A DNA stretch of 64,000 nucleotides, taken from NCBI RefSeq assembly GCF_003345255.1, contig NZ_CP029331.1, positions 1,054,001 to 1,118,000 of the forward strand, written 5' to 3'. Below are positions 28,924 through 50,016 of the stretch, piece by piece. The DNA comes from Pseudothauera hydrothermalis. GTDB lineage: Bacteria > Pseudomonadota > Gammaproteobacteria > Burkholderiales > Rhodocyclaceae. The position numbers were made by a program, and so were the translations under genes. The notes under the pieces were generated by a model. The model saw only the letters and a program-made list of their open reading frames with translations. It had not been told where the DNA came from and made no database searches. The first letter of the stretch is position 1. Every line of letters starts with the position of its first letter.

Positions 28924-30114
28924 ATGAAGGTGCTCGGCGCGGGCATTTTCAGCCTCATTCTGGCGCTGGGGGTCGCACGTTTTGCCTATACGCCGCTTTT
29001 GCCGCTGATGCAGGCGCAGGCCGGGCTGGGCTTGGCCGAGGCGGGCTGGTTGGCCGCGCTCAATTATGCTGGCTACCTCTTGGGTGCCTTGATTGCCGCG
29101 TCGATCGGCGATCTGGTGCTCAAAGACCGTCTTTACCGCATCGGCATGGTGGTGGCGGTGTTGAGCACGCTGGTCATGGGTTTGAGTACCGATCTTTTGG
29201 TGTGGGCACTGTCACGCTTCGTGGCCGGGCTGTCCAGCGCAGCGGCAATGTTGCTGGGCACCGGTTTGATTCTGAATTGGCTGATTCGTCACAACCATCG
29301 TAGCGAACTGGGTATTCACTTTGCCGGCATCGGTCTGGGCATCGCCGGTTGCGCCGCGGCGGTGGCTGTGATGAATCCTTGGCTGGATTGGCGTGGACAA
29401 TGGTTTGTGTTTACCGCCATTGGCTGTGTGCTGCTGGTGCCAGCGCTGGCCTGGCTGCCAGCGCCCGATCCCAGCCCCTATACCAAGTCCGGTCAGATGA
29501 TGCGCGACAATCCGCCCAGCACGCTGTTTCTGCGTCTGTTCATGGCGGCTTATTTTTGCGCCGGGGTGGGTTACGTGGTCAGCGCCACGTTCATCGTCGC
29601 TATCGTTGACCGCCTGCCGGGCCTGGCCGGGCAGGGCACGTGGACCTTTCTGGCGATCGGCCTGGCCGCGGCGCCTGCCTGCATTGTGTGGGACTTGATC
29701 GCCCGGCGCACTGGCGAACTCAACGCGTTGATCCTGGCTGCCGTGCTGCAGATCGTCGGCATTTTGCTGCCGCTCTCCGGCGGATTGGGCGGTGCGCTGG
29801 CCGGTGCGCTGTTGTTTGGCGGCACCTTCATCGGCATGGTGAGTCTGGTGCTCACCATGGCGGGGCGTTATTACCCCACGCGACCGGCAAAAATGATGGG
29901 CAAAATGACCGTCTCTTACGGTGCGGCGCAAATCATCGGTCCGGCGGTTACCGGCTGGTTGGCGGCTTCGCTGGGCGGCTATGCCGCCGGGCTGTACCTG
30001 GCCGCCGGTGTGATGGGGGTTGGCACCCTGCTGCTGATTGCACTCAAGTTCATCGAAGGTCGGGAAGGCGCGCCCGGCGTAGCCTGCGGCCCGACCTCGG
30101 GTTCAGGTTGCTAG
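28924..30114 (+). CDS. YbfB/YjiJ-family MFS transporter
   Basis: Inner-membrane carrier of ~396 residues with 12 predicted spans. The first-span signature ALGVARFAYTPLLPLMQAQAGL is the family hallmark, followed by LAALNYAGYLLGALIAA. Substrate unknown; the name is by sequence style. The start is uncertain: ATG at 28924 fits the family start, but GTG at 28903 has a better GGAGGA ribosome site 10 nt upstream. Divergent from the LysR gene. Confidence 0.9.
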   Translation: MKVLGAGIFSLILALGVARFAYTPLLPLMQAQAGLGLAEAGWLAALNYAGYLLGALIAASIGDLVLKDRLYRIGMVVAVLSTLVMGLSTDLLVWALSRFVAGLSSAAAMLLGTGLILNWLIRHNHRSELGIHFAGIGLGIAGCAAAVAVMNPWLDWRGQWFVFTAIGCVLLVPALAWLPAPDPSPYTKSGQMMRDNPPSTLFLRLFMAAYFCAGVGYVVSATFIVAIVDRLPGLAGQGTWTFLAIGLAAAPACIVWDLIARRTGELNALILAAVLQIVGILLPLSGGLGGALAGALLFGGTFIGMVSLVLTMAGRYYPTRPAKMMGKMTVSYGAAQIIGPAVTGWLAASLGGYAAGLYLAAGVMGVGTLLLIALKFIEGREGAPGVACGPTSGSGC

Positions 30115-31044
30115 CGACCATTCGCCCCGCAAGAGCGGTTGCAGGATGCGGGCGATCTCCACCACCTTGCCGATGACAATCAAAGACGGGGTGCGCAGGC
30201 CGGCGGTGCGCACCGCGTCGGCGAGCTTGCCCACCGGTGCGCTCACCATGCGCTGGCGCGGGGTGCTGGCCGCATGCACGACCGCAGCGGGCGTGTCCGC
30301 GGGCAGGCCGTGGGCGATCAGCTTGCTGCAGATGATCTCTAACGCGCCCAGGCCCATGTAAATCACCACGGTTTGGTGCGGCCGGGCGAGCGTCGTCCAG
30401 TCGAGATTCACGGTGCCGTCTTTGAGGTGACCGGTAGTAAACACCAGGGTCTGCGCACAGTCTCGGTGGGTGAGAGGGATGCCGGTACAGGCGGCCATGC
30501 CCGAGGCCGCGGTGACACCGGGCACGACTTCACAGTCGATGCCCGCCTCGATGAGCGCCTGCATTTCTTCGCCGCCACGCCCAAAAATGAACGGGTCGCC
30601 GCCCTTGAGCCGCACGACTTTGCGCCCCTGCTGGGCCAGCTCGATCAGGAGCCGGTTGATTTCCGTCTGGGGCAGCGCGTGCATGCCCGCTTCTTTACCG
30701 GCATAGATCCGTAAGGCGTCAGGGCTTGCAAGTTCGAGGATGCCGTCGCCAACCAAGTGATCATAGACGATCGCATCGGCTTGGGCGATTCGACGCACGG
30801 CACGCACGGTCAGCAGTTCGGCATCGCCCGGACCCGCACCGACCAGACTGACCTTCCCGGCGCGTGCGGGGCGGGCGGCACCGCGGGAGTCGTCCATGCT
30901 CGCTGCTACTGTGGCGCCCGTCGCAGTTGGGGCTAGCCCGCGGGTATCGAATTTCCCGCTTGCCAGTGAGACGGAAGGCCGATCGGTTTGCATCCTGCTG
31001 TCGGTCCAGAGGCAGGTGGCGCTGCTGGGGGGCCGGGCATTCAT
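30103..31044 (-). CDS. nirE: Uroporphyrinogen-III C-methyltransferase, denitrification type
   Basis: SAM-dependent methylation of uroporphyrinogen III at C2 and C7 to precorrin-2, the first committed step toward heme d1 and siroheme. Residues ~60-300 carry VSLVGAGPGDAELLTVRAVR, VYDHLVG, LKGGDPFIFGRGGEE, VVPGVTAASG and ASTPRQRMV. The first ~55 residues are a family-variable tail. ATG at 31044 has AAGAGGA upstream; the longer frame to 31143 would run through the FNR-type box. It is divergent from nirS with the box at 31105-31118 between, which supports NirE (d1 pathway) over a siroheme-only enzyme. The 3' end overlaps the MFS gene's 3' end by 12 bp. Confidence 0.94.
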   Translation of the reverse strand: MNARPPSSATCLWTDSRMQTDRPSVSLASGKFDTRGLAPTATGATVAASMDDSRGAARPARAGKVSLVGAGPGDAELLTVRAVRRIAQADAIVYDHLVGDGILELASPDALRIYAGKEAGMHALPQTEINRLLIELAQQGRKVVRLKGGDPFIFGRGGEEMQALIEAGIDCEVVPGVTAASGMAACTGIPLTHRDCAQTLVFTTGHLKDGTVNLDWTTLARPHQTVVIYMGLGALEIICSKLIAHGLPADTPAAVVHAASTPRQRMVSAPVGKLADAVRTAGLRTPSLIVIGKVVEIARILQPLLRGEWSLAT

Positions 31045-31104
31045 GGTCGTTCCTCTTGCCGAAAGCTCGGTACGGACTCTAGCAGCGCGGGTGCGTTGCT
31101 GAAA

Positions 31105-31118
31105 TTGACACAAGTTAA
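31105..31118. promoter_or_regulatory. FNR/DNR-type box A, shared by divergent nirE and nirS
   Basis: TTGAC-ACAA-GTTAA, a near-palindromic match to TTGAT-N4-ATCAA. On the nirS side, CAAAGT (31141-31146) begins after exactly 22 nt, giving a predicted start of transcription at about 31153. On the nirE side, TAGAGT (31081-31076, minus strand) begins after 23 nt, giving about 31070. Both fit a class II -41.5 arrangement. Regulator identity (Dnr at 41914-42687) is inferred. Confidence 0.7.
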
Positions 31119-31196
31119 AGACGCATTTTTCGTGGGGGAACAAAGTCCGCTCTGGCTGATAGAGGCCAACTCTGGCGATTTGTAGGGAGACCCACC

Positions 31197-49302: not shown

Positions 49303-49342
49303 GACAGCATTCCCCTTGGAGTTTTCGGTTCGCGCATTTCCC

Positions 49343-49768
49343 TCAGCCCTCGATGTTGGGCGGCCAGTTCTGAGTGTTGATCTCGGAGGTGTACTTCAGA
49401 AACTCGACCAGGTTGTTCAGATCTTCCTCCGAGAGGTTGAAGTTGGGCATCTGGCGGCGGCCGGGGGTGCCGGTGGGCTGTGATTGCATCCAAGCCTTGA
49501 TGAATTCTGGCCCGCGGCGCTTGTAGACGTTGCCCAGCTCGGGGGCATAGTAGGCGCCTTCACCCAGCAGGGTGTGGCAGCCTAAACAGTTGCGCGTCTC
49601 CCAGATGTGCTTGCCCGCAGCCACCGCCGGCGTGATGTTGTGCCGGTTGTCGGTCTTGGGCAGGTTCGACGTGGTGTCGAAGGTCAGCGCCAGGAAGAGC
49701 AGGAAGAAGAACACTGTCCCGCCGTAGAAGATGTTGCGGGCCATCGCCTTGGTGAAGGTGCCGCTCAT
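49343..49768 (-). CDS. norC: Nitric oxide reductase cytochrome c subunit
   Basis: Membrane-anchored monoheme subunit delivering electrons to NorB. 141 residues, one N-terminal span (12-30), CLGCH at residues 61-65 and Met ligand in [39 protein letters not shown] precedes the ATG. Transcription is predicted from about 49835 via box E. Confidence 0.97.
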
Positions 49769-49869
49769 GGTTTTCCCCTCATTGTTTCGTGCGTCCGTGT
49801 GAGTGTTTTGAACTGGTCAAGCAAACCCGAAGGTCCGGCGCACTGTATTTTTTGAGGGGGTGGGGCTCC

Positions 49870-49883
49870 ATGATTTGAATCAA
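49870..49883 (-). promoter_or_regulatory. FNR/DNR-type box E, norCB promoter
   Basis: On the minus strand TTGAT-TCAA-ATCAT, nine of ten half-site positions. TACAGT (49847-49842, 4/6) begins after exactly 22 nt, giving +1 at about 49835 and a 67-nt leader. It sits within a wider 15-nt near-palindrome GATTTGA-A-TCAAATC (49872-49886). Confidence 0.75.
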
Positions 49884-50016
49884 ATCGCTATCCGCGCGTG
49901 CTGTGCTCGGCAAAGGCCGTGCACGCGCCAGTCACCGCCGGGCCTTGCGCGCGGCGATGTGCGATCTCCGGCGACGGGAGGAGAGCGGCCCGGCGTCGCG
50001 GCCGGGCCGGACAGGG

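Follow-up and report, generated by a model that had tools for sequence, protein, structure and literature searches.

We propose that the denitrification island of Pseudothauera hydrothermalis, which lies in a 64-kb window (the whole stretch of DNA analysed here) of the 3.06-Mb, one-contig genome, is controlled by class II promoters of the CRP/FNR family, and that one of these promoters gives the norE operon a leaderless mRNA; we consider this reading likely. As far as our searches show, the predicted, conserved leaderless start of norE is what is new here, while the promoter grammar itself, an FNR-type box followed at a fixed spacing by a -10 hexamer, is textbook FNR/DNR control. In the proposed mechanism, a Dnr- or Fnr-type dimer on a box centred at -41.5 would contact RNA polymerase, sigma70 would read a -10 that begins 22-23 nt away from it, and the box between nirS and nirE would serve both directions. 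At norE the same geometry would set the transcription start (+1) on the A of the AUG, yielding a norE-F-Q-DUF4870-Fer4_5-norD-dnr mRNA with neither a 5' untranslated region nor a Shine-Dalgarno sequence, so that ribosomes would have to start on the 5'-terminal AUG.

Box and -10 geometry of the island promoters

In the class II CRP/FNR promoters of E. coli and P. aeruginosa the activator binds at -41.5, the -10 is of the sigma70 type and the -35 is poor. The initial annotation had ascribed this geometry to the island on the basis of five boxes, each with a -10 hexamer 22 nt away (23 nt for nirE), and direct reading of the DNA confirms these coordinates and spacings. Mismatches were counted against the FNR/DNR-type consensus TTGATNNNNATCAA (FNR-type pattern TTGAT-N4-ATCAA). 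The divergent nirS (+) and nirE (-) promoters have one box in common (31105-31118, TTGACACAAGTTAA, three mismatches), at whose place the relatives of nirS carry boxes matching 7-10 of 10 bases. From this box the nirS -10 (CAAAGT, 31141-31146, + strand) is 22 nt distant, with a predicted +1 at 31153, and the nirE -10 (TAGAGT, 31076-31081, - strand) 23 nt; the 5' end of nirE, whose ATG is at 31044, had been expected at 31070 and now shifts to about 31069. The same TAGAGT at 23 nt recurs in the loci L163-L166 and L179 of relatives. On the plus strand, nirC has its box at 35187-35200 (TTGATGCGGGTCAA, one mismatch), its -10 CATCTT at 35223-35228, a predicted +1 at 35235 and its ATG at 35262, and nirJ has its box at 38790-38803 (TTGATGCGGATCAT, one mismatch), its -10 TGTAAT at 38826-38831, a predicted +1 at 38838 and its ATG at 38910; the spacing is 22 nt in both. 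On the minus strand, again with 22 nt, the norE box (47734-47747, TTAACCGCGATCAA, two mismatches) is followed by CAGAAT at 47706-47711, and the norC box (49870-49883, TTGATTCAAATCAT, one mismatch) by TACAGT at 49842-49847, with a predicted +1 at 49835 and the ATG at 49768. The bases agreeing with TATAAT at 22 nt number three for nirS, one for nirE (four at 23 nt), three for nirC, five for nirJ and four each for norE and norC. Separately, we note that some bases of the nirJ box also belong to the nirH stop codon, so that a binding site and the end of a coding frame coincide in part.

Since two of these hexamers are weak (CAAAGT and CATCTT, with three of six matches) and one box has three mismatches, it might be argued that the regularity is a chance product of choosing -10s by eye to suit the boxes. 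The box alone is only moderately rare (34 matches at two or fewer mismatches in the window, where shuffles average 10.2 with a standard deviation of 3.4), and the box at 31105 is too weak to enter that list. When the -10 scores of the six promoters are added up, however, the sum is highest at 22 nt among 48 spacings (z 5.3), a peak reached by 2 of 20,000 shuffled sets and by none of 20,000 sets of random positions. A composite weight model was built from the boxes and -10s of 121 promoters of relatives, the window, the loci of five same-genus genomes and L052 being left out of the training; it places the six promoters at ranks 1, 2, 3, 5, 6 and 7 in the window, with scores from 25.4 to 17.5. 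As a background, 20 hand-placed 20-kb stretches of the chromosome (400 kb) hold one site scoring at least 17 (18.2), and in the same sample none of the 20 directed boxes as good as that of norE has a fitting -10. With these shuffles, the ranks given by an independently trained model and one comparable site in 400 kb, chance is refuted as far as a sequence can refute it, and we give it almost no credence. A cruder comparison, in which the whole genome yields 120 matches to TTGATNNNNATCAA at one mismatch or fewer and 4 to the reversed pattern, does not count here as proof, since this control is unmatched in word content; many of the 120 presumably lie in coding sequence, and their number far exceeds that of plausible promoters.

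Rank 4 (19.2) belongs to a further class II box at 52041-52054 on the minus strand, with the -10 CAAAGT at 52013-52018 after 22 nt. The claim that one grammar explains the whole island was nearly right, this box having been overlooked. The site of rank 8, at 62561 (17.0), is a chance-level box within a coding frame and was set aside.

The geometry is kept in relatives. Searches of 61 genomes together with 80 named loci provided 241 non-redundant regions upstream of orthologues, of which 144 with a unique box matching at least 8 of 10 bases were kept and 97 with a weaker or tied box were dropped. Among spacings of 10-39 nt the best -10 stood at 22 nt in 77 of the regions kept, at 23 nt in 23, at 21 nt in 5 and elsewhere in 39. 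The highest mean score fell on 22 nt for norE (39 sequences), norC (40), nirS (25), nirC (15) and nirJ (19); in the six sequences of nirE relatives 22 nt was not the top spacing, which counts against the proposed reading. The box of FNR type, the spacing (23 nt for nirE and 22 nt for the other five promoters) and their retention in orthologues support the proposed -41.5 geometry, and class II FNR/DNR control of the island appears well supported, as secure as DNA letters can make it, and is already known in kind. According to Rodionov et al. 2005 (PMC1274295), the nir, nor and nos genes in the DNR regulon of beta- and gammaproteobacteria are likewise preceded by an FNR-like box, CTTGATnnnnATCAAG, and dnr orthologues occur in betaproteobacteria, as here. 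Their passages on it contain no occurrence of norE and do not mention transcript starts, whereas here the -10 spacing was tested and norE is predicted to be leaderless. What our analysis adds to the promoter grammar is a clean quantified confirmation, together with a warning that the grammar alone cannot assign the activator.

The predicted leaderless start of norE

Bacterial leaderless mRNAs have an AUG at the 5' end and no Shine-Dalgarno sequence, and the -10 of their promoters lies 6-8 nt ahead of the start codon. In the window, 6 nt separate the end of CAGAAT from the ATG of norE (47697-47699, - strand), so that the 22-nt rule sets the predicted +1 on its A (47699), a coincidence on which the initial annotation made no comment. 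The result fixes the start codon of norE and predicts its transcript start to the base, and is directly testable.

Among 93 non-redundant norE loci a class II promoter was called in 75, the calls being made without regard to the start codon. An in-frame ATG lies 6-8 nt past the -10 in 52 of these 75 (6 nt in 16, 7 nt in 32 and 8 nt in 4). The 52 loci have 43 distinct sequences between -10 and ATG, which means that the length of the spacer is conserved while its sequence is free, and in 38 of them no other in-frame ATG, GTG or TTG precedes the conserved core. The duplex energy with the 16S tail is +0.2 kcal/mol for norE of the window and has a median of -1.1 kcal/mol over the 52 loci, two of which reach -5 or below; a Shine-Dalgarno sequence is present in 60 of 60 norB, 98% of 56 norC and 75% of 48 norD genes. 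The same test of the distance to the ATG gave 0 of 52 for norC, 0 of 29 for nirS, 0 of 12 for nirE, 2 of 22 for nirJ and 4 of 16 for nirC. The sporadic cases of an ATG 6-8 nt past the -10 are nirJ in L211 and L217 and nirC in L229, L230, L241 and L243.

A different explanation would place the transcript start upstream, through read-through from norCB or at an unrecognised promoter; norE would then merely have no Shine-Dalgarno sequence, and the -10 next to its ATG would be incidental. The norCB genes lie 224 nt upstream on the same strand, and although a terminator-like hairpin (47812-47831, - strand) parts norB from the norE promoter, which we count in favour of a leaderless norE, such hairpins leak; other genes of the cluster also have no clear Shine-Dalgarno sequence (it was found in 0 of 5 nirN). 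On the other hand, box, 22-nt spacing, -10 and 6-8 nt to the ATG occur together in 52 of 75 promoters despite 43 different spacers. An ATG at that distance is absent from all norC and nirS promoters, which are of the same kind, and in the locus L277 norB and norQ are separated by the same architecture. An upstream start thus seems unlikely to us.

The reading of norE as leaderless has nevertheless to be weighed against a number of observations. The norE -10 of the window is merely CAGAAT, and it is from this hexamer that the +1 was derived. No promoter was called in 18 of the 93 loci and 23 of the 75 calls are not leaderless; the 23 include Sulfuricella, Thiobacillus, several gammaproteobacteria, the Thauera metagenome-assembled genome (MAG) L066 and most loci from outside the Rhodocyclales. 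A stricter first count, restricted to ATGs upstream of the aligned part, gave 44 of 75, and 14 of the 52 loci have another in-frame start further inside. The Shine-Dalgarno sequence is unclear not only in nirN but also in nirJ, where 60% of 35 genes have one. Read-through from norCB could, moreover, yield norE transcripts with a leader.

Pattern searches point in the same direction as the promoter calls, within limits of their own. In the P. hydrothermalis genome a pattern running from the half box to the ATG was found at three places, one of which is norE (control 0). A second pattern, made up of a half box, TANACT after 22 nt and an ATG 6-8 nt further on, was sought in 150 genomes of the family and occurred at 23 places in 21 of them, compared with one for the reversed control. 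The ATG belonged to norE at 14 places and to norQ at 2; the 7 remaining ones, in unrelated or short frames, count against the reading. It is a further weakness that TANACT was borrowed from norE promoters, so that the enrichment of norE (though not the norQ cases) is partly built in, and that the pattern misses CAGAAT, the norE -10 of the window itself. In L277 and L278 it is the norQ ATG that holds the leaderless position, with no norE or norF within 1.5 kb of the pattern site; in L277 norB lies directly upstream of that site, and in its genome (G031) the best match to norE is only a distant COX3.

The leaderless norE set bears the names Azoarcus, Thauera, Aromatoleum, Zoogloea, Dechloromonas, Azonexus and Rhodocyclaceae; two gammaproteobacterial MAGs (L105 and L126) also qualify, perhaps by chance. 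It is probable that in Thauera, Azoarcus, Zoogloea, Dechloromonas and their kin the nor accessory operon is, lineage-wide, a leaderless operon activated by FNR/DNR, in which the activator box would be held at a set distance from the start codon, that distance being selected while the sequence drifts, and in which norQ would take the place of norE when norEF is missing. If this is true, the genes for assembly of the nitric oxide (NO) reductase, together with dnr, would be translated from a 5'-terminal AUG by leaderless initiation and not by Shine-Dalgarno pairing. With a named activator and with NO and anoxia as the stimulus, leaderless norE in the culturable Thauera and Azoarcus would form a natural inducible system, in which one could ask why a lineage keeps leaderless translation at a single operon.

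What would set the predicted norE mRNA apart from known leaderless mRNAs is its coupling to a class II promoter of FNR/DNR type and its conservation at a single respiratory operon; from the class II CRP/FNR promoters of E. coli and P. aeruginosa, which usually give transcripts with a 5' leader, norE would differ in the lack of a leader. Full-text searches in a limited open-access library, judged by titles and abstract openings, found no account of a leaderless nor operon. A gonococcal small RNA that begins with AUG is described in PMC3032703.

Candidate activators

The island dnr (41914-42687, - strand), the last gene of the norE unit, encodes a protein of the Crp/Fnr family with the Pfam domains PF00027 and PF13545 (cNMP-binding fold and Crp helix-turn-helix), the nearest solved structure being P. 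aeruginosa DNR (3dkw). Its recognition helix, QEHFSR, fits E-x-x-S-R, the form of helix that goes with TTGAT half-sites. The protein has no N-terminal cysteine cluster of FNR type, its cysteines being at positions 8, 76, 131, 152, 199 and 250 only. Since dnr starts 4 nt past norD, and since the list of composite sites in the window holds none scoring at least 8 just upstream of dnr on its strand, the gene is plausibly transcribed from the norE promoter; the earlier placing of dnr at the end of the norE unit accordingly stands as a plausible co-transcription. Among the 58 relatives whose sequence extends 6.5 kb or more beyond norE, 30 carry dnr downstream of norE in the same orientation. Of these 30 loci, 25 fall in the leaderless norE set, and six leaderless loci have no dnr, when rows removed as redundant are scored as not leaderless.

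The genome has nine Crp-type helix-turn-helix domains above the cut-off, seven of which carry E-x-x-S-R. One of the paralogues is an Fnr with CSQCNLQELC near its N-terminus. Another is encoded by a second Dnr-like gene (G000:C1 2198992-2199801; L255:8992-9801), whose product is 48% identical to the island Dnr and matches P. aeruginosa DNR with 138 bits, against 117 bits for the island protein. The second gene adjoins nnrS, with fnr, hemN and the cbb3 cluster nearby, and its product is possibly the main NO sensor of the genome.

The grammar described above is found outside the island as well. A strict genome-wide search for it found six places (control 0). Downstream of these, and of further sites in one chromosomal stretch, are the genes for cytochrome bd (cydA), cytochrome c peroxidase, the cbb3 oxidase and hemN (beside fnr), and also those for a U32 peptidase, a cytochrome c and a 2-oxoacid:ferredoxin oxidoreductase. 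The cbb3 and bd oxidases, hemN and the like are typical genes of oxygen limitation, which means that the grammar belongs to the whole FNR group and cannot separate FNR targets from DNR targets.

The main activator at the island boxes might instead be Fnr or the second Dnr, with the island Dnr in a secondary role and a feedback loop absent or minor. The presence of both proteins, the cysteine cluster of Fnr and the common grammar at oxygen-limitation genes speak for such an arrangement, as does the report that the Dnr site of P. aeruginosa is indistinguishable from the Anr box (PMC5398030); against it stand the presence of dnr within the nor operon of 30 out of 58 relatives and the finding that in Pseudomonas the targets of DNR include nirS, norC and others (PMC1274295, PMC5398030). 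We regard it as a serious possibility, somewhat short of an even chance. The positive feedback loop through the island Dnr, which the initial annotation had deduced from the position of dnr, is consequently no more than possible, given the second Dnr, the Fnr and the common grammar.

The closest parallel that we have found is the nirS-nosR2 region of Dinoroseobacter shibae, for which PMC5398030 describes one box used both ways between divergent denitrification genes, as we propose for nirS and nirE. There, reporter fusions showed that the single box serves both genes through FnrL and Dnr proteins, and the box lies 39.5 and 41.5 bp from the two starts, which were measured, whereas ours are inferred. 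Several Dnr-type regulators and FnrL meet there on the same sites, as the two Dnr proteins and Fnr may here. D. shibae differs in being an alphaproteobacterium and in having nosR2, not nirE, as the partner of nirS.

Gene content and the additional site at 52041

The class II box at 52041 precedes a gene (51478-51951, - strand) for a secreted, Cys-rich protein of 157 amino acids (Sec157), which has no match in Pfam or NCBIfam; its transcript would be expected to start near 52006. The site is kept in G005, and in G001 with a spacing of 23 nt. Of 61 genomes, 11 have a homologue of Sec157, which in G013 shares a contig with nirS, nirF and norE. Sec157 was considered as a conserved member of the island and rejected: a composite site scoring at least 14 precedes only 4 of the 11 homologues, that of P. 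hydrothermalis itself included.

Family searches largely bear out the gene names given earlier: nirE, nirS, nirC, nirDL-G-H (a siroheme decarboxylase set), nirJ, nirN, norCB, norE, norF and norQ, together with a NapC/NirT cytochrome, a PF09459 cytochrome, a cupredoxin and the Crp/Fnr regulator. The names nirF and norD rest partly on position, their family matches being weak or below the cut-off. On the minus strand are nirE (uroporphyrinogen-III C-methyltransferase, 30103-31044), norD (42692-44548; a weak VWA match below the Pfam cut-off, named by position), norE (COX3 family, 47094-47699), norB (COX1 family, 47923-49302) and norC (cytochrome c, 49343-49768); on the plus strand are nirS (cytochrome cd1, 31197-32876) and nirJ (38910-40130, TIGR04051 above the cut-off). 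TGA codons within the nirJ matches of some relatives were found to be ordinary C-terminal stops in the six loci checked. Within the nir cluster, a tRNA-Thr gene (34997-35072, - strand) follows the cupredoxin gene and precedes nirC, and together with a strong terminator-like hairpin (34955-34991) it parts the nirS unit from nirC.

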